This document shows positions 20,792 to 59,733 of a stretch of DNA of 64,000 bases, piece by piece. Position numbers and translations under genes: made by a program. Where the stretch lies: NCBI GenBank assembly GCA_028583605.1, contig CM053330.1:15711539-15775538 (forward strand), in the 5' to 3' direction. The notes under the pieces were generated by a model that was not told the DNA's origin, did no database searches, and was given only the letters and a program-made list of their open reading frames with translations. The number at the start of each line of letters is the position of its first letter. Position 1 is the first letter of the stretch. This DNA comes from Dastarcus helophoroides. Its lineage: Eukaryota > Arthropoda > Insecta > Coleoptera > Bothrideridae.

Positions 20792-20856
20792 ATATTAAAA
20801 CAAAACTTTAGAAAATGAGATGATTTTGCGAAAGATAACGAATTTCCAGAAAAAAA

Positions 20857-21235
20857 GTGTGAATTTACAGATATAAATGTTGAATGTCGAATTTTTGAGA
20901 AAAAGAAATCGTTTAAAGAGATTGGAGTTTATAAAGATCAATTTTAAGAATAGGCCAATTTTTAGAAAAGTGATGAAAAATATTTCCAGAGGAAAGTGTA
21001 AATTTACAGAGATACAAATGTTGAACGTCGAATTTTTGAGAAAAAGAAATCGTTTAAAGAAATTGAAGTTTATAAAAATTAATTTTAAGAATAGGCTAAC
21101 TTTTAGAAAAGTGATGAAGAAAATGTCCAGAAAAAAGTGTAAATTTACAGCGATCTAAATGTTGATTTTTGAATTTTTGGGAAAAAGAAATCGTTTGAGA
21201 ATAGGCCAATTTTTAGAAAAGTGATGAAATTTTGA
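20857..21235 (+). repeat. Tandem repeat, ~140-bp period, 2.6 copies
   Basis: Copies start with GTGTRAATTTACAG at 20857, 20996 and 21137. The third is shortened by an internal deletion. The unit is itself made of the degenerate A-rich motif; the 93-residue frame through it (20877-21158) is a translated repeat and not a gene. Confidence 0.8.
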
Positions 21236-24439: not shown

Positions 24440-25344
24440 TTGGAAAACCTGGAAAAATGTTGAAAATTCGAAAAGAGTCGATATTTCAGAAGCAGAACTG
24501 TATAAAAAAACTCGCTATTTCTATAATAAGAGAGAATTTAAAGAAAAAAAAAATGCAATTTCCGAAAATATTTTTGTCACAATTTTTATATAATTTAAAT
24601 GTTGACATAATCCTGAAATTTACAAGAAACCTTTTTCTCAAAGTTTCCTAAAAATATTATTCCCATAATTTTTAAATTTTCGACCCAATTTGGAAAAAGA
24701 TTGAGTAATTTCGACAAAAATTGAAATTTTCAAAAAAGATCAAATTTTAACTTTACATTTCTAGAAATAAACATCGACTTTTTTTAAGCAAGTCGAAATT
24801 TCGAGAATGTGGAGAATTTAAAGAAACAAGTTTAAATTTCCGGAATGTTAAATTAAAAAAAATATATATATACATATATATATATATACGTATTTTGAGA
24901 AAAAGCCGAATATTAGGAATTAGGATTGAATTTCAATGAAAAAAAAAGGATTTTTGATAAATGCCGTCGTCTACAAAATATTAAAAACTTTAAAGTAAAG
25001 ATACCCTTTGGAGATGAAAAAATTATAACTTTGAGAGTAAAGTTGTAATTTCTAAAAAGACAAATTTTGAGGAAAGAACCTTCTTTTGGGAAACAATAGA
25101 AACTTTTGTAAACCAAATTTCTAACTTTGAAAAGGTTCGAAAAATGTCTAAAATACAAAAAAGGCAAAATTTATAATGGTTAATTTTTGGAAAAAAATTT
25201 TGAAGAAAAAAATGTCCACATAAGTTTTTCTTGAAATTTTTCCTTTCTTATTTAAAGTTTGGCCGCAATATTAAATTTTGAAAATAATTTGAACTTACAG
25301 AATTCTTTTTGTCGAAATCTTTCTAAAATATTTTTCTTAGAATG
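24440..25344. repeat. Degenerate A-rich repeat array (left of retrozyme)
   Basis: Same loose AAATTTTCGAAAAAGTC-type units as at 17110-19600. A short (TA)n run lies at 24864-24890. The array is continuous with 25960-27410 once the inserted element at 25345-25951 is removed. Confidence 0.7.
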
Positions 25345-25359
25345 AAAATTGGAAGTGTA

Positions 25360-25424
25360 TACAACCACCTTACCATGCTGATGAGGCCAAGGAAGGCCGA
25401 AACTAGTCTATGGTTGCGGTTGTA
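25360..25424 (+). ncRNA. Hammerhead ribozyme 1 (type I, left repeat)
   Basis: Order: TACAACC (outer stem I), ACCATG (inner stem I), CTGATGA core at 25378-25384, stem II GGCC-AAGGAA-GGCC, GAAA at 25399-25402, palindromic CTAG as stem III, then TC with cleavage predicted after 25408. TATGGT pairs with ACCATG and GGTTGTA with TACAACC; the ACCTT/TGC internal loop sits where tertiary contacts form in natural type I ribozymes. Every invariant base is present. Confidence 0.9.
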
Positions 25425-25825
25425 CATATTTTCAATTTTAAGCACGTTTAATTGTTTAATTACAGAACATTTGATTGGTCATTTGACAAAACTAGATGAA
25501 AGTAAAGTCACGCCGAGGACGTTTGTATCTATGGATGTTGCGATGCAACCCGTGATACAAGCTTTGCCTCATCTAAGTGAACTTTGCAATTGCAGTCTAG
25601 TTTTCATTAGATTCTAATGAAATTAGATTTCAATTGCATCGTAATAAACTTGTACATATTCGTATATACAAGGCTTATTATCTCAGCAGAGAGTAATGCT
25701 TCAATTAGCATGTGGCGAAAATGTTTGCGTAATAAACAGTTAAAAGTCAATTACAAGTCACCCAATGGAGGTTTGCTCTCTTGGATACTTATACGACTGA
25801 CTAACGGCTTTAAATTGGAAGTGTA

Positions 25826-25890
25826 TACAACCACCGTACCATGCTGACGAGGCCAAGGAAGGCCGAAACTAGTCTATGGTTGCGGTTGTA
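25826..25890 (+). ncRNA. Hammerhead ribozyme 2 (type I, right repeat)
   Basis: Same fold as the left copy, shifted by 466 bp. The core is CTGACGA (25844-25850), with N7 changed from T to C, which the consensus allows. Stem II GGCC/GGCC, GAAA at 25865-25868, stem III CTAG and cleavage predicted after 25874. The internal loop differs by one base (ACCGT). Both copies therefore look functional. Confidence 0.9.
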
Positions 25891-25959
25891 CATATTTTCA
25901 ATTTTAAGCACTTTTAACTGTTTAATTACAGAACATTTGATTGGTCATTTGTTAGAATG

Positions 25960-27410
25960 TTTACTTCTTTATTATTAGCATTTCGTTCTAATTTTGAGAA
26001 AGGAAAAAAAAATATAGAACTTAGAATAAAGTCGTAAAAAAAATACTTTCGAAAAAAGAAACCAGTTTTGGAAAAAAGAAAATATGTTTAAAAAGTCCAA
26101 TTTAAAAATATTAAACACCAATCCTTCGGAAAAATTCAAATAATGTCGAAAATTCAAAATATGTTCAAATTTCTAATCGGACAAATTTTGTGAAAAAGTC
26201 GCAGTTTTGAGAAAAAAATATGAGGAACAAATAGAAATGTCCAAAAGTTTTTATCTCGAAATTTTTCCCTTTTACTGAAAGTTTCACCATAATATTTAAA
26301 CGGAAAGCAGATGAATTTACAGAATTCCTTATCTCGAAATTTCCCAAAAATATTTTTCTTAACATGTTTGCTTTATATTATTACCATTCCGATCTAATTT
26401 AGAGAAAATAAAAGAACTGTAAGAAAATAATATTTCAAGAAAAAGCTAGAAATATTTGTCACAAGAAAACATCCTGTTTTGAGAGAAAAGTGAGAATTTC
26501 GAAAAAAATGAACATTTTCGAAAAAAATTACGGATATAATAGAAATGTGAAATTTCGAATGATTTTTAAAAGACAAACCTAAAAAGTAAAAGTTTGAAAA
26601 TAAAACTGAAATTCCAAAAAAAAAATTTTTAAGCAATAGGCAAACTTGAAGGAAAAGACTAATTTTATGAGAAAAATCAAAATTTCGAGAAAAAATCAAA
26701 CTTTAAAAAACCTCAAATATTAGGAAAATCAATTCTGAAAGGTCAAAATGTTTAAAAATAGACCAATGTTAACAAAAATAACGAAATTTTGAAAAAAGGC
26801 GAAATTTCAGGAAAAAGGTCAAAACCAAAAAAGAAGGAATTAAAAAAAATGTAATTTTTCAAATAAAGCCAAATTTTCAGAAAAAAATCGCATTTTGTGA
26901 ATAAAATCGAAATAAAAAAGCATTTCCAAAGAAAATTCAAAATTCCCCAAAAAAGAGAAATTTTGAGGACAAAGATGAATTTTGAAGAAAAAGACGAAAT
27001 GTCTGGAAAAAGAAATTGAAATTTCGCAGAGAAAATAAGATTTTGAGAAGATAATAAAATTTTAGGAATATTCGTTTATGAAAAGGACGAATTGAAAAAA
27101 TCAAATTTTAAGAAAAAGACGATTTTGAGGAAAAAGTTGAGATTTCAAGGAACATGAGAGAACATTTGAGATAAAGTCGAAATTTCAAAAAAATTCGAAT
27201 TTTGAGAAAAACTTCAGAATTTGCAGAAAGAGACGAATCTCGAAGGAAATTCGATATGTCGAGGAAACGATTGAAATTTCAATAAAGAAGTCGACATTTA
27301 TTAAAAATTTGAATTTCCCAGAGAGAGTCCCATTTCGTCAAAATTTTGAATAAGAGGCCGAATTTTGAGAAAAGGTCGAAATTTCAAGCAAGTCGTCTAA
27401 ATTTCCTGGC
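25960..27410. repeat. Degenerate A-rich repeat array (right of retrozyme)
   Basis: This continues the array at 24440-25344. The phrase near 26341-26402 (aaaaatatttttcttaacatg…gatctaatttagag) is a paralogue of the target site of the retrozyme-like element and serves as its empty-site model. Hydrophobic minus-strand frames (for example 26394-26699) are translated repeat. Confidence 0.7.
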
Positions 27411-27729: not shown

Positions 27730-28940
27730 ATTATAACAGAAACATGGCCAAGAAGCTCATGACAAAGGCAAAAAATCATGTTGGGATAGAAAATGTGCTC
27801 AAGTAAACTCGATGGTAGAGGGATCTAGATCAAGAGAAGCATGCAATACAATAAACGGAAGAAAGAGAGATACAAATAAAAGAGGCAAAATAAATCCCAT
27901 CCATCTGGAAACATGAAAAGGTTATTATAATGAGCTGTTAACTAAAAACTGACTAGAATATCTTGACACACACCTAGTAGAGGTGAAAAAATGTCTCTAG
28001 AAGAAGTGAAAGCAGCGCTACAGAAAATGAAAAACAATAAAACTCCTGCACCGGGTGATTTACCTATCGAGTTAATCAAATATGCTACCATAGAAGTCCT
28101 AGATATAATTTGCCCAATACTCAACAAATGTTTAGATGCAGACGAGATCCCAAAAGATTGAAAAGCATCCTATTTAAACTCAGTCCATAAGAAAGAAAAC
28201 CGGCGCGAATGCCAGAACTACAGAGGGATAAGTATAACATCATCGATTGGCAAATTATATGAAAGAGTTCTCAAAACCAGTCTTGGAGAGGAAGCTGCAG
28301 ACGTTGAAGATCAGAAAGGACTTAGACCTGGAAGGTCTTACGTGGATAACATCTTCACATTAAAACAGATAGCAGAAAAGAAACTCTTACGAGGGAGAGA
28401 ACTCCATGTCGCCTTTGTAGACCTGCGTAAAGCATTTGACTCGGTTCCCCTCCAAAAACTGTGGATGGCCATGGAACAATCAGGAGCGAGCAAAAGTTAC
28501 ATCCGAGCTACAAAAGCCCTCTACGCAGAGAACCTGGTAACTGTCACAAATAGCAATGCAGTGGCACCTCCATTCTCGCAAACAAAGGGATTAAAACAAG
28601 GCTGCTGTCTCTCTCCTAGCTTATTCAAAATCTATTGGAACATAGCATTAAGACAGTGGACAAAGAAATGCAGCCCCATGGAAATAACAGTAGACAATAG
28701 TCCAATATATACAATTCTTTTGCGGGCGACCAAGTTATCCTGGCCGAAGACGAACAAATGTGACATATATGTTGGACAAGCTTAAGGAGGAATAAACAAA
28801 ATGGGGACTAGAAGTCAACACAGAAAAGACAAAATACATGGTCATAGGAGAAAAGGAGGACGATATAAAAATAGGACAGGGGATAGAAATAAAAAACGTC
28901 GATCAGTACGAATACTTGTGGGTCCTAATAAGATTTTCAA
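27730..28940 (+). pseudogene. LINE reverse transcriptase relic (RTE/CR1-like)
   Basis: In order: EEVKAALQKMKNNKTPAPGD and LPIELIKYA (RT domain 0/1), NYRGISITSSIGKLYERVL, then RPGRSYVDNIFTLKQIAEKK, VDLRKAFDSVPLQKLW (catalytic block A) and KGLKQGCCLSPSLFKIYWN. The YADD region at about 28700-28760 is in another frame, and a tail with EVNTEKTKYMVIGE follows after further shifts. Stops and frameshifts make it inactive. The longest clean frame is 28342-28785. No endonuclease region is seen upstream. Confidence 0.85.
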
Positions 28941-33154: not shown

Positions 33155-34310
33155 CCTTTGCGAGTGGATTAAACTTAAAAACAAAATCCAAAGACATGGG
33201 GTGTCAACTGCAACATGTACTCGTGCTTTATTGATGTTGAAAAGGGGTTCGATAAAGTTCGCCATCAAAAACTTTTAGAGACGCTTAAAGAATCTGATAT
33301 TGACGATAAAGACATTCGTCTGACTAAAAACGTGCATGCAGATCAACGAGCAACAGTCCACGTGGAACAGGAGGTGTGTCCCGGGGTTCCAAGTAAACAG
33401 AGGCGTCCGGCAAGGCTATATACTCTTCCTACTGCTCTTCAACGCATATTCTGAAAAACTATTTAGGGGGGCCGTACACGATACTGCCGACGTGGTGTCC
33501 ATCAACGAAAAAATCATTAACAAGCTAAATTACGCGGACGACACCGTACTACTAGCGGATAGTGCAGAAGGACTGCAAAGGCTAATAGATCGAGTGACAG
33601 CGATTAGTAATGATTACGGGATGAAACTTAACGCCAAGAAAACGAAAATCTTCATAGTTAGCGAAAACAATATTCCAAGAACACTATTCAATGCAGACGG
33701 TGTAACATTGTAAGAAGCAAGTAAAATCACATACTTAGTTTGTAACCTTAACAAAGATTGGGATCACTCGCAGGAAATTAAAACCCGAATAGAAAAAGCC
33801 AGAAGCATTTTTAACCGAATGAGAAAGAATTTGTGTAGTTCAAGGCTTAACATACATCTTAGGTCCGTGTTTTCGCTGCTATATTTTCTCCATACTGCTA
33901 TATGGCGCGGAAGCATGGACTCAAACTGACGCCTCGTGCAAGCGACTGGAGGGATTTGAAATGTGGTGTTACCGTTGCATGCTCCGAATATCATGACCCA
34001 CCACATTACCAACAACCCTGTGAAGAAACGGATGAGAAAGGGGTCAGAAATTCTAACAACAGTAAAGATCAGGAAAACGCCATATTTGGGGCATATCATG
34101 AGGAAGGAAAAGTATCGTATCCTCCAGTTAATAGTACAGGGTAAGATTGAAGACAGAAGGAGTCCAGGTCGCAGAAGAACATCATGGTTGAAGAATCTCA
34201 AACAGTGGACAGGATTGTCATCTGCAGTATTATTCGGATCAGCCGTTTATAAAGTTACTTGGACAAATGTGATGGCTAACATCCACAGAGGATAAGCACC
34301 AACAGAAGAA
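33155..34310 (+). mobile_element. RTE/CR1-like LINE, catalytic RT and C-terminus (after nested insertion)
   Basis: This continues 30885-32703. FIDVEKGFDKVRHQKLLETL (block A) is in one frame; a one-base shift near 33390 moves to GVRQGYILFLLLFNAYSEKL and LNYADDTVLLADSAEGLQRL (the YADD active site), then NAKKTKIFIVS. After another shift come KTPYLGHIMRKEKYRILQLI and GRRRTSWLKNLKQWTGL, the conserved ORF2 C-terminus, ending AGC/stop at about 34295. Related to the minus-strand element at 49760-52330, which has the same tail. Confidence 0.85.
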
Positions 34311-49759: not shown

Positions 49760-52330
49760 ATCTGTTTTTATCCTTAACATACACTTCTTCTCCTCTTTCT
49801 GCTTATCCATTAATGGATGTTTGCGAGCACATTTTCCATTACTTCTCTGTCTCTGGCTGTGTGAATGAATGATTGTATATCGCGTATGCCTGTCCACTGT
49901 CTCACGTTCCGCAGCCATGACATTTTTCTTCGCCCTACTCCTCTTTTACCCTTAATCTTACCCTCGATAATTAGATGGAGAATTTGATACTTATTGTTGC
50001 GCATAATGTGACCCAGGAATGCTGTCTTTCTTTTTTATAGTGTTGAAGAGTTCTCAATCTCTATTAAAACGTTTGAGAACCTCCTCGTTTTTTATCCTGG
50101 CTGTCCATGGTATCTTAAGGATTCTACGATATGTCCACATTTCGAATGTTTCTAATTTTTTTATAGCCTTCACTTTTGGGGTCCAGCTTTCCATTCCGTA
50201 CAAGAGTACTGACCAGACATAACACCTCAGAAGTGTCAGGCGAAGACCAAGATCAAAGTCACTTCAACTGAACACTTTTTTAAATTTCAAGAACCCGCCT
50301 CGGGCTTGTTCGATTCTGCACTCAATTCTTTGTCTGATGACAATTTTTGTCTGAAGCCATGTTCTCAGGTATTTAAATCTTGCTACCCGTTCCAAAAGTT
50401 TTCTGTTGTGTGCTAAATCTCCAAATGTCTCTTTTTCTCTTGTGATAATCATGAATTTAGTTTTCTTTGTGTTTATGTCTAGTCCTATGTCCTGGCTACA
50501 TTCTCCTACTACATTGACTAACTGTTGCAGATCATCCATATTATTCGCTACAAGAATTGTGTCGTCCGCATAGCGTATATTATTTATCTAGACTCCATTC
50601 ACTCTGATCCCCTTTCCTTGCCCTCAAGCGACTCTTGAAAGATAGCTTTTGAATACAAATTAAATAAAAGTGGCGATAATATTGACCCTTGCCGCACTCC
50701 TCTACGCCATTAGTTAGTCTTACTTTTGCTGATTGGTGCCTATGTAAGTTTTGATGCGTCGGATGTCTTTTTGATCTAAATCAAGCCTCCTGAGAAGCTG
50801 CATAAGTTTGTGATGTTGTTCTTTGTAGAAAGCTTTCTCGTAGTCCATGAAGCATAGACATAAGTTTTTTCGCTGATCATAACAGTTCTGTATTAGGACT
50901 TGCGTTGCAACTAGTGCTTCTCTTGTGCCCAGCCCTTGCCTAAATCCAAACTGAGAGTTACTTATAGCGTTGTCACACTTTATATACAATCTCCAATATA
51001 ATATTCTTAGAAATATTTTCAAGAAATGACTCATGAGGCTAATAAGTTTGTGTTTTTCACATTTCCGTGCGTTGATCTTCTTTGGCAGAGAGATAAAAGT
51101 AGAAGAGAGCCACTGTTCTGGGTAATGGCCCGTGCCATATATTTGGTCAAATAACTTGTAAAGTACTGCAATGCCTCTCACATCTATAAGTTTGAGTATT
51201 TTTGCTGGTATCCCATCTGGTCCAGCTTTGTTATTTTTGAGATGTCTATAGCCTTTTTTATCTTTTCTTTAGTTATAGAAGGACCATCCATATTGTTCCC
51301 GACTATAGACGTCTTAGTCGGTCTGTTATCATAGAAACGTTTTTCTAGCGTAGTCCTTCCATATCTTACACTTTTCAGAATTCTTAAGGACAATGTGGTT
51401 ATCTTCATTGACTATTATACCTAAGCTCCGTTTTCTAAATAACTAAGGAGTTTCTTCGAGTCTTTTATGAAGGTTAAAATCATCATGTTTATGTTGAAGT
51501 TCTTCTATTCGACTGCATTCTCTTTTGAGCCATTCGTTTTTTACAAACCTGATTTCTGACCTTATCCGTCTTTGCAGATCTCTATACTTGCCTTTATTAT
51601 TTTTGAATTTTCTGCGTTCTTTCATGAGAAGTAGAATTTCATTGGTCATCCATTTTTGTCTTTTATTTCTAGAACTATATCCTAACACATCTTGTGAGGT
51701 GACTTTTAGAGCATTTGCTATTTCTCCCCATGACTGTATCACGTCATCTCCTTCGATTTTGGGAGACAAATTTTGCATCTGCGAATTTAATTGGTTGGCT
51801 AATTCGGTTTTAATTACTGAATCATCTAATTTATCCAATGCCATTAAACGTCTTGGTGTTTCTTTTTTATGCTTCGAGAGCGATATTTTCAATACAGCCA
51901 TGAGTAGTATATGATCGCCTCCTATATTAGCACAAGGATATGTGCACGCTTTTTTATGGAAGAAGCAAATATAGAGTTTATAAGTAGATAATTTATTTGG
52001 TTACAAATTACGTTCTCTGTCTGATCTCTTGGCGACTTCCTACAGATGACGATGGTGATGTTGAAACCAGGTATTAGTCACTGTCATGTTTTCTTCTTGG
52101 CAGAACTATAAAAGATGATCACCTCTTTCATTTCTTGTTCCTAACTCAAACAACTCAATGATGTTTTCGAGTCTACATTTTCCTAGTTTAGCATTTAGAT
52201 CCTCCATGATTATATTGACCTCTTGCTTCTTAGGTAATTTTCGTAGTTCCTTTGTATCAATATACAACTGCTATATCGTGGTCTGCTCCTTTAAATTTTT
52301 GTCCTCTGTATTTAAACTGGAAATTTCTAT
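49760..52330 (-). mobile_element. RTE/CR1-like LINE, nearly full ORF2, broken
   Basis: On the minus strand in order: endonuclease blocks near 52230-51930 (NIIMEDLNAKLGK, then GGDHILLMAVLKISLSKHKK); linker 51901-51443 (KWMTNEILLLMKERRKF); RT 51181-50720 (WLSSTFISLPKKINARKCEK, SNSQFGFRQGLGTREALVAT, FMDYEKAFYKEQHHKLMQLL); a YADD region near 50560; 50539-50264 (LDINTKKTKFMIITREKETF); C-terminus 50004-49810 (GKRGVGRRKMSWLRNVRQWT). Block A reads AFYKE where AFDKV is expected, so a catalytic Asp is lost, in addition to stops and shifts. Confidence 0.88.
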
Positions 52331-57104: not shown

Positions 57105-58899
57105 GTAAGTAAACTTCTTAGTATAATTTAGTTGAATACGTCAATATTCATGAATTTTTTAAAAACTTGAAAATTAGCTTATTTTGTTTTTTCTGAGTAA
57201 GAGATTGTCCCAAATTATTTTACAGATGTTTACAATGTTTTTGCTCTACGAACAGTTTTTACGAGGATTGATAGATTGTAACAAAATAAAGTCTACTTGG
57301 CTATGAACAAATAAGTGTCAGTCGGGCAGTGGCAATTATTTTCTGTCAAAAGACAGATTTGTTATTTTATCCTATGATTGAAAATTAAGTGTTCTTAAAA
57401 TTAAATCTTTATTGACAATTATTAACCTCATAATATTTAGCAGCTTTCTAGTAACTTAGACACATAATACGTTAATTACAATTATAATTCGTTAGTTACC
57501 TATCATAATACCAAATTCTATTTTAAAAGTTTGTTGATTTTTTTATGTCATCGTTATCCATAATACGATAAAGCTTTGAAAGCAACTCGATTATTAGCAA
57601 TTTAAACAATCTCGGACGTGGCCAGACGACTCGGCTAACGTCTCGTCGCCTGGCAACATCCTTGATTATTATAAATCGCATAACAATCTCGTTACATTAA
57701 TGGCTATAATTCGCTCCCAATTCTGAAGTCTGAATTTGGTAATGTTTTTTATACATCTCTTTAAGTTTGGGATGACTTGTAAAAATGTGAAAATAGAAGC
57801 ATGATAATATTTCTCAAAAATCGTTACAAAAAATGAACCTTGGCTATACTCCAGAACCATAAATAAAATAAATGTATTATATGTATAAGGGATTTTATCC
57901 ACATAAAAAAAATAAAAGCTCAATATCCGTGACAGGAAACCTTCTGGATACATTCTGAAGGAATCTTATTGATTGAATAATTGAAAAAAAGTTTAACAGT
58001 AACAAGACAAGTTTACAAAGCGACAATTACAAAATTTAAAATTATCGTCCGCGGAGTGTTATGCTTCCCTAAAATTATAATGAAAAAGAAACATTTTCTA
58101 AGCCTCATTAACGAGGTCACAAAATTGTAAAACTTATTTACTGTGCCTTACGGATAAGCGATGTTGACAAAACATCACCTCAATTTTAACATCGACAACT
58201 TAAAATTGGTTTAAACAAAAATCCATCTTGAAAGACAGATGTTTTTTGAAAAATTATTCAACACAAAAAATAATTAATTACGCGATTGTTAAGTTTTAAA
58301 AAACCAAACATAAATGATTTCAGGTTTTTTTATAGGACTGCGAATAAAAAAGTTACAGCAGACTTTAGAAAAAGATGTTTTTTTGCTTTTTTCTTAACAA
58401 AATGTAAACAAGTCGGTATTAAATCATTTTCCCAATGCAATGGCGTGTTGATAAGCATAAATTTTGGCAATACTTTACCTATTTGGCCGACTTTCTATGT
58501 CCACTAACGAAGGTACCCATTTTATACCTTTTCAGTGTTCACTGTATAATCCATAGTGTTTAAACATTTTTATTTATATGTTTTTCAACACATGGTTGAA
58601 GCATAATCAGCACTTTACATTATTCGCATACTTCTTTCAGCAGGAACAGAAGATACAACTTAAAATATGTATTTCATTATGCAGCTCAGGGTGAAAAAGT
58701 CTTTTAAAAATTCTCATGTATATGTCTTTGAAACAGCAAAGAAGTCTCTACGGCTTGAACATGATCAATTTATGGAAACTGTAAGCCGTCTCTTCATATC
58801 TTTCCATTTCCATTTCTATTCCCGTTTTTTCCAATTCCCAAATAGCTCATGCATGAAGACGAATCAAAAGTGCACTTCATCATGTTATTTTCTTTGTAG
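57105..58899 (+). other. Intron in the protease domain
   Basis: GTAAGT donor to TTTTCTTTGTAG acceptor, 1.8 kb. I see no transposon ends or coding content in it. Confidence 0.8.
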
Positions 58900-59113
58900 G
58901 ACGACCAATGGTAATATCCGGGTAAGATTGGGGGAATGGGACGTCAGAGGCCAAGACGAGAAATATCCCTACGAGGAATACACTGTGGAGCGGAAGGAAG
59001 TGCATCCAGCATATTCGCCTTCCGACTTTAAAAACGACGTAGCCTTAGTGAAATTAGATAGAAATGTGAGATTTAAGCAGCACATAGTTCCGGTGTGCTT
59101 GCCATCACCAACG
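58900..59113 (+). CDS. S1A protease domain exon 2: catalytic Asp
   Basis: Phase 2 in, phase 0 out (donor GTAAGT at 59114). Encodes [20 protein letters not shown], the conserved LGEWD block, then [20 protein letters not shown] and [14 protein letters not shown], where the Asp in NDVAL is catalytic Asp102. It ends [11 protein letters not shown], the usual border before the exon with the substrate pocket. The reading is intact. The next exon, with GWG and GDSGGP motifs, is not found up to 64000, so the gene continues past the window behind an intron longer than 4.8 kb. Confidence 0.93.
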
Positions 59114-59733
59114 GTAAGTGCTCTCGAAAGTTTCTTAGGCCACAAATTAAAGTTGATCACGCAATTGTTACACTACAGTTAAGGATTGTTTTTACATAAA
59201 CTTTACTGATTTAATAAGTTCTTTTACATACAAATTTATTAGTAGTTTTTTTGCTTGGATGCACCGTAAATTTCTCATTTAGGTAATTAGTATGTTATTT
59301 TAAAAATTCAGGAATTTTAACTTTATATAGGAACACATGGAATGTTTAAGACATTTTAAGTACGTAACAAACTAAAAGCAAGTTTGGAATAAATTCATGT
59401 TTTGAAGAAATAAATAGAAATTCCTAAATGAGAGCAACATTTCTAAAAAAATCATTAACATTTTGAGAGTTTTTTTTAAGTTTCTACCGTTTTCCTCGAA
59501 ACGCTTTAGACTTGATATTCTCATTTTTATGCAAAAGTTTCGAAACTTTTCTCAAAATTTGAACCTCTAACCGACATTTAAAAACATGAATGAATATTTT
59601 CTGAAAGATGTTTAGTTGAAAACTAAAATTCTAATTTTCTTTTCTCAAAATTCCGACCACATAAATTTTGAAAATTCCCAAACTAACTCCTCACTCTAAA
59701 ATAGTTTTAGTTTAAACTTAAAATTTAATGGTG

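Follow-up and report, generated by a model that had tools for sequence, protein, structure and literature searches.

Insertions of a putative new animal retrozyme family in Dastarcus helophoroides bear the signature of Penelope-like elements

In a stretch of 64,000 nucleotides from contig CM053330.1 of the beetle Dastarcus helophoroides (here called the window), a short segment is inserted between two perfect 8-bp copies of TTAGAATG. What kind of element is this, and what moves it? A first-pass annotation had read it as a retrozyme-type retroelement with two hammerhead ribozymes in LTR-like terminal repeats. By sequence reading, the target duplication lies at 25337 to 25344 and 25952 to 25959, and the insertion itself (25345 to 25951, plus strand) is 607 bp long with a GC content of 36.7%. 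Repeat comparison gave 140-nt direct repeats at 25346 to 25485 and 25812 to 25951, both on the plus strand, offset by 466 and identical at 136 of 140 positions. One of the four differences is in the internal loop of stem I, one is at core position N7, and two are outside the ribozyme; base 25345 (A) belongs to neither the repeat nor the target duplication. When the flanks were joined at the duplication, their alignment with a paralogous, element-free unit of the host array (26205 to 26416; 74.8% identity over 218 columns) continued through the junction, and when the insertion was kept in, the same alignment split no more than 6 nt from the insertion borders. Thus, an insertion in a perfect duplication, the 140-bp repeats, and a host array that is continuous without the element were all confirmed.

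The insertion amounts to 1.30 copies of a noncoding 466-nt unit, which is too short for the open reading frame of a Penelope-like element (PLE; reverse transcriptase plus GIY-YIG endonuclease), and no stop-to-stop open reading frame of at least 120 amino acids overlaps 25345 to 25951. Its RNA-sense 3' end lies at a start point that we call site A, which is where the second repeat stops. The window copy is therefore a one-way array that started at A and extends for 1.30 units, and the apparent LTR is the 0.30-unit overlap. Elsewhere in the window, the host array around the insertion is AT-rich, and a 141-bp tandem repeat of 2.5 copies (20841 to 21196) has AT-rich surroundings with many weak short repeats. 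Open reading frame fragments matching Pfam RVT_1 at 28162 to 28785, 33324 to 33713, and 50720 to 51268 are probably LINE remnants. A trypsin-like serine protease exon lies at 58664 to 59182, and the best match of 58844 to 59182 among solved structures was prophenoloxidase activating factor.

Each repeat holds the parts of a type I hammerhead with an extended stem I: CUGAYGA, stem II GGCC/GGCC with the loop AAGGAA, GAAA, palindromic ACUAGU, and a predicted cut after C. In hammerhead 1 (25345 to 25439, plus strand), the core CTGATGA starts at 25378, stem III ACTAGT is at 25402 to 25407, and the predicted cut is after 25408; in hammerhead 2 (25812 to 25904, plus strand), the core CTGACGA starts at 25844, ACTAGT is at 25868 to 25873, and the predicted cut is after 25874. 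Cut prediction and a circular fold thus delimit a plus-strand unit of 466 nt (25409 to 25874). A strict hammerhead descriptor, scanned over both strands, matched the window at these two places only and matched none of 300 dinucleotide shuffles, and the predicted hammerhead hairpins had z scores of -5.8 (copy 1) and -4.7 (copy 2). Folded as a circle, the unit had z scores of -8.0 for the plus strand and -9.1 for the minus strand; for comparison, the mean z score was -0.17 (standard deviation, 1.04) in 21 window segments used as controls, including one that overlaps the element. Neither an Rfam search nor the strict descriptor detected a ribozyme on the minus strand of the unit. These results agree with the annotated pair of intact hammerheads with cuts 466 nt apart and support a retrozyme-type element that could release a 466-nt RNA.

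In the whole window, no Rfam family reached its gathering score. The best match was Hammerhead_HH9, with 25.7 and 22.7 bits (E values of 5e-4 and 5e-3 in an 801-base search) against a gathering score of 52. The first-pass annotation had proposed that covariance scores below threshold in both copies would speak against the ribozymes, and both copies did score below it. We do not accept this as a refutation, for two reasons: stem III has just two pairs and a 2-nt palindromic loop, and copies of the family share a conserved core. With so short a stem III, a single copy could hardly close it, but ACUAGU is self-complementary, and two copies can therefore share a 6-bp stem III. Such a dimeric mechanism is described for viroid and newt hammerheads (PMC6155905) and has been suggested for PLE hammerheads (PMC7761336).

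Next, we examined the family in the genome (538.9 Mb, 50 contigs). A search flagged 2045 first-look places; scoring 40 of them produced 102 matches, which were grouped by hand into 40 sites, and all of these were read. Twenty further sites came from a second search (40 scored of 1902 places), whose hits were taken from the top of the list with known sites skipped, so that the family has roughly 1,900 to 2,050 first-look places, 40 of them scored in each search. Among the 60 sites, there were 36 one-way arrays, 23 head-to-head arrays, 1 irregular array (L030), and no tail-to-tail arrays. Total insertion length ranged from 0.64 to 7.43 units (median, 1.59), and the longest single arm had 4.47 units. 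Intact cut motifs bounded 52 units, which were 465 to 467 nt long, 47 of them exactly 466. The LTR-like layout that had been annotated is therefore not supported as a conserved structure, and the contrast drawn with the tandem form of animal retrozymes is weakened, in that other sites are tandem.

With circle position 1 defined as the base after the cut, the 5' ends at the 60 sites were scattered over the circle, and the RNA-sense 3' end was the sole fixed border. Allowing for bases shared with the target, 3' ends fell at one of two sites, A or B, with a few up to about 10 nt away. Site A is mostly at circle positions 77 to 82, that is, 77 to 82 nt after the ribozyme cut, and site B is about 200 nt beyond it, mostly at 274 to 280. 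The conserved border is thus this 3' end alone, in two alternatives, rather than the 140-bp repeats and 8-bp duplication that the first-pass annotation had put forward as element borders. By 3' end, the 36 one-way arrays divided into 31 with A, 4 with B, and 1 with circle position 255, a share of A that is no fair estimate because both queries carried site A, which favored the recovery of A ends. Of the 23 head-to-head arrays, 22 combined A with B (P = 6e-6 at even odds), and A+A arrays were as findable as A+B arrays with the queries used. The sole other array (L029) combined B with circle position 453, in hammerhead loop II, and no target duplication was found at it; a later deletion is perhaps the explanation.

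Both start sites coincide with predicted hairpins on the plus strand. In the window copy, the site A hairpin (25479 to 25499) has the form TCATTTG-[ACAAAAC]-TAGATGA, and the site B hairpin (25681 to 25692) has the loop AGCA (25685 to 25688). In the predicted circle, A is at the edge and in the first part of its loop, and B is inside the AGCA loop. In eight of nine units that were spot-checked, the A and B motifs lay in predicted hairpins, although the A stem of L035 was shifted; the remaining unit came from the diverged copy L043, and the A and B motif strings were not found in it. For comparison, a lizard PLE starts at an AC-rich stem loop 111 to 118 bp into its open reading frame, with its ribozyme cut at +26 (PMC11167929); by our own subtraction, this start is 85 to 92 nt after the cut and resembles the retrozyme hairpin start. 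The scattered 5' ends also bear on the template. A linear self-cleaved monomer was rejected as template: just 2 of 84 arm 5' ends were within 5 nt of the cut, about the chance number, with queries that favored copies crossing the cut.

Target duplications of at least 8 bp, the shortest length scored, were present at 37 of the 60 sites compared with 2 of 600 mismatched flank pairs, and none was found at the other 23. They were 8 to 15 bp long, most commonly 12, so the 8 bp of the window copy is not a fixed length. Duplications flanked 20 of the 23 head-to-head arrays, all 20 of them A+B (the misses were L029, L058, and L071), and 17 of the remaining 37 sites.

We then asked whether each array was copied from one template. 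For full 466-nt units (47 of the 52 between intact cut motifs, a choice that makes this a sample of little-decayed arrays), the difference was 0.17% inside arrays (23 pairs) compared with 1.51% between sites (1058 pairs). The two arms of head-to-head arrays differed at 39 of 7027 positions (0.56%) compared with 2388 of 163045 (1.46%) for arms of different arrays, and nonmajority bases were common to both arms in 44 of 62 cases in the same array compared with 232 of 1386 (16.7%) in different arrays. In 20 of the 23 arrays, the arms had at most three differences. Because they share variants, the arms of an array were apparently copied from the same RNA. A few arrays, with 10 (L054), 6 (L066), 4 (L071), and 3 (L060) arm differences, showed no closer kinship between their arms than with many other arrays. 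Against one template, 41 of the 42 arms compared from other arrays were closer to the first arm of L066 than its own partner was, and the corresponding counts were 26 of 42 for L054 and 22 of 44 for L060. Where single arms cover a position twice, 153 of 14291 positions disagreed (102 of 13468 without L030, L043, and L067), which exceeds the 0.17% of intact units; we take these disagreements as later mutations.

To see which parts of the unit are conserved, we counted nonmajority bases at 57 sites (excluding L030, L043, and L067). The hammerhead core and stems had 6 nonmajority calls of 2052 compared with 228 of 23845 elsewhere (Fisher P = 9e-4, ignoring shared ancestry), and positions varying in at least two sites numbered 0 of 36 in the hammerhead and 33 of 430 elsewhere. 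The most variable of all 466 positions was N7 (19 of 57 sites), a hammerhead core position that is free to vary. Across the 60 sites, there were 122 strictly intact hammerhead strings. The core and stems are more conserved than the remaining sequence, as would be expected under selection on the ribozyme.

At the common variant positions (circle 119, 192, 306, 311, 323, 356, 377, and 417), nearly all have A, with G as the second base. Some of these positions are linked, which points to subfamilies. We considered A-to-I editing of the circle because of an excess of A>G over T>C (96 versus 24 at the 57 sites), and we rejected it since the excess stems from positions common to many sites, of which some are linked (356, 377, and 164), and rare variants were equal (15 versus 15).

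Given these insertion features, we turned to the PLEs that this genome contains. A GIY-YIG search pointed to 1070 places, of which 150 were scored and yielded 91 matches. Of 15 regions read, 14 had PLE fragments (9 of one family, PLE-1, and 5 of another, PLE-2); the remaining one (L083) encodes another GIY-YIG protein. PLE-2 carries a hammerhead with CTGAAGA, a stem II, GAAA, and palindromic ACGCGU. One of its 3' ends, ...GTTTCA(A), is at a predicted hairpin and follows the predicted cut by 62 nt; the other, ...CCATCA, is 37 nt further on (99 nt). PLE-1 ends lie 57 and 93 nt beyond its GAAATACGTATC motif, and its ribozyme core looks degenerate. In all three head-to-head PLE copies with a target duplication readable by eye (L051 of PLE-1 and L079 and L086 of PLE-2), one end was short and the other tailed. 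A PLE-2 pair in opposite orientation on contig C7 (33907940 to 33908040 and 33910300 to 33910400; L087 and L088) had both ends tailed, and no common flank or target duplication was found for it. As a family, represented by L079, L080, L081, L084, L085, and L086, PLE-2 has a minimal hammerhead and two alternative 3' ends. Its 3' end had 2339 first-look places, of which 40 were scored; these held 43 matches, 40 of them 98 to 100% identical, two 87%, and one 96%. PLE-2 is a young and common family. Thus, fixed internal starts, a tail on one inverted end, and a short duplication characterize both the retrozyme and the PLEs of this genome.

By eye, the retrozyme ends at A and B have a final TCA in common with the two PLE-2 ends, which is too short to count as evidence. 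As an argument against the link with PLEs, the retrozyme had no match better than E 0.3 to the 15 PLE loci except for an old, decayed retrozyme relative in L075 (1424 to 1643; 68 to 74% identity). This relative lies some 480 bp past a PLE-1 copy, and the family is thus older than its young copies. The exact string (TTAGG)6 occurs 3565 times forward and 3545 times in reverse in the genome, whereas the backwards control occurs 18 and 117 times. Arthropod telomeres are built of TTAGG, and the counts thus point to an arthropod.

Taken together, these data make it very probable that the element is a nonautonomous animal (non-LTR) retrozyme and that PLE machinery inserts its RNA circle. The sequences establish its anatomy, the two fixed 3' ends, the variable 5' ends, the duplications, the A+B pairing, the variants shared by arms, and the like architecture of PLEs in this genome, whereas we infer ribozyme activity, circle formation, and a PLE as the source of the enzyme. 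In this model, read-through transcripts would be cut by paired hammerheads, and the released 466-nt RNA would close into a circle of rod-like shape. Two PLE activities, the GIY-YIG endonuclease and the reverse transcriptase, would bind this circle and make a staggered target break of 8 to 15 nt. Copying would begin in the loop of a hairpin, in most cases that of site A, and reverse transcription would run from 0.6 to more than 4 times around the circle. At 23 of the 60 sites, the other strand of the break would also have been primed, at site B on the same RNA, to give a head-to-head array. It is about evenly balanced whether two PLE enzyme copies hold one circle at A and B, each leading one strand of a single break, with the tailed and tail-less ends of PLEs reflecting the same division of labor. 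If so, the inverted architecture of PLEs would be a double-primed reaction on one RNA molecule; however, a lizard PLE in vitro showed no start-site difference between the DNA strands (PMC11167929), which argues against a fixed strand role for the two sites.

What the template was, and which enzyme copied it, could be explained otherwise. An uncleaved tandem transcript could serve as template and the hammerheads some other purpose: multi-unit arrays could arise in this way as well as from a circle, which counts against the circle, and a lizard PLE in vitro inserts unprocessed RNA, with ribozyme mutants equally efficient (PMC11167929). However, with arms of up to 4.47 units and a median total of 1.59, few source loci could yield such a transcript, and variants are scarcer in the hammerhead core and stems than elsewhere in the unit, so we regard this as unlikely; a circle accounts for the several-unit arms. 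Less likely still is that a LINE-type enzyme moves the retrozyme. LINE twin priming also yields head-to-head inversions, and the window contains reverse transcriptase fragments that are probably from LINEs. Yet the second start in LINE twin priming is variable, whereas here it is fixed (22 of 23), and the starts are internal to the unit, without an end or poly(A). Starts at fixed internal points, a tail confined to one arm, and duplications of such a size are instead features of the PLEs of this genome and of PLEs as described previously (PMC3846280, PMC11167929). For the head-to-head arrays, self-priming of one folded-back cDNA, as proposed for PLE inverted repeats (PMC3846280), would fit arms that share variants. 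It is nevertheless very improbable, since it predicts A+A arrays, from the template arm's own site, and none of 23 was of this kind; moreover, the arms mostly begin at different circle positions, and their junctions span from a 54-nt overlap to 11 nt of filler.

Two further readings concern what the element is, and to both we give next to no credence. The window copy alone, with its end repeats and target duplication, looks like a plant-type retrozyme with true LTRs inserted by LTR retrotransposon (Gypsy) machinery. This is refuted by the 5' borders, which vary over the circle so that repeat length is not fixed; furthermore, duplications are 8 to 15 bp instead of a fixed 4, the hammerheads are type I instead of type III, and by reading, ACAAAACTAG after the left repeat is unlike the start of a tRNA binding site and GACTGACTAACGGCTTT before the right repeat is no purine tract. 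A tRNA scan found none. The other reading, an integrated viroid-like infectious RNA with no genomic element, would suit a 466-nt circle for which folding predicts strong self-pairing of either strand. Against it stand the lack of a detected minus-strand ribozyme, the large number of first-look places in the genome, insertions that obey PLE rules, and, as a weak test, zero matches of two exact hammerhead patterns in viral contigs. The patterns likewise had no match in prokaryote genomes, as expected for an animal element.

With a retrozyme circle inserted by PLE machinery as the favored reading, we compared the family with known systems. Dolichopoda cave crickets carry pDo500, a repeat of about 500 bp with a type I hammerhead. 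Like the present family, it is an insect repeat with a hammerhead, but it is classed as satellite DNA, and among the matches listed no insertion signature was apparent (PMC2837043, PMC2808323). For Schistosoma W-element satellites, the account in PMC8490949 gives possible target duplications for one element and, in the parts that concern it, does not mention two-site arrays. Plant LTR retrozymes (PMC4918200) resemble the window copy in having two hammerheads in repeats and an expected unit-length circle. In the plant elements, however, the hammerheads are type III, the fixed-border LTRs measure about 350 bp, the duplications span 4 bp, and there are a tRNA primer site and a purine tract (PMC7761336); none of these features was seen here.

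The closest class is that of the animal non-LTR retrozymes of Acropora, Mytilus, and Ambystoma (PMC7229834). As in these, intact type I hammerhead cores stand in each noncoding unit, GC is low (36.7%, against a class limit of 45 to 50%), copies are numerous and range from dimers to multimers, the unit RNA is predicted to be strongly paired, LTRs are absent along with a primer binding site and polypurine tract (the latter two by reading), and duplications exceed 4 bp (37 of 60 sites, 8 to 15 bp). The 466-nt unit is just above the class range of about 150 to 450 bp and above the printed unit sizes of 170 to 400 nt, and the 2-bp stem III with a 2-nt palindromic loop is a further difference from the described elements (PMC7229834). 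So are the head-to-head arrays, whose 3' ends fall at two fixed points; the terms inverted, head-to-head, and orientation do not occur in the main text of PMC7229834. We therefore regard these insertions as a putative new family of animal non-LTR retrozyme bearing the Penelope signature.

In a 2020 review, animal retrozyme repeats are described as having no conserved motif that points to an autonomous partner (PMC7761336), and PLEs had been proposed as that partner on the basis of type I hammerheads in both, tandem copies, and coexistence (PMC7229834). Here, the insertions themselves bear the PLE signature, a candidate answer to what mobilizes animal retrozymes. If it is right, the kind of partner is named, and a 466-nt substrate is at hand for tests of PLE integration. 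Among the matches listed from the open-licence literature, titles and abstract openings contained no report of a link between retrozymes and the Penelope signature. As far as we searched, this link and the two-site, one-RNA form of head-to-head arrays are new, and the element class is known. Arms that apparently come from one RNA but from two distinct start sites also speak against fold-back as the origin of inverted PLE arrays.

PLEs with hammerheads in pseudo-LTRs differ from the retrozyme in that the latter codes for no protein and copies its 466-nt unit several times around, and their second start is 36 to 37 nt from the first compared with about 200 nt in the retrozyme. Their described duplications are 8 to 10 bp (PMC3846280, PMC11167929) compared with 8 to 15 bp here. 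Like the retrozyme, PLEs have stem-loop starts, an optional tail on one inverted end, and head-to-head arms (PMC3846280, PMC11167929), and in PLE-2 of this genome, as in the retrozyme, a hammerhead with a palindromic stem III lies shortly before an internal start.
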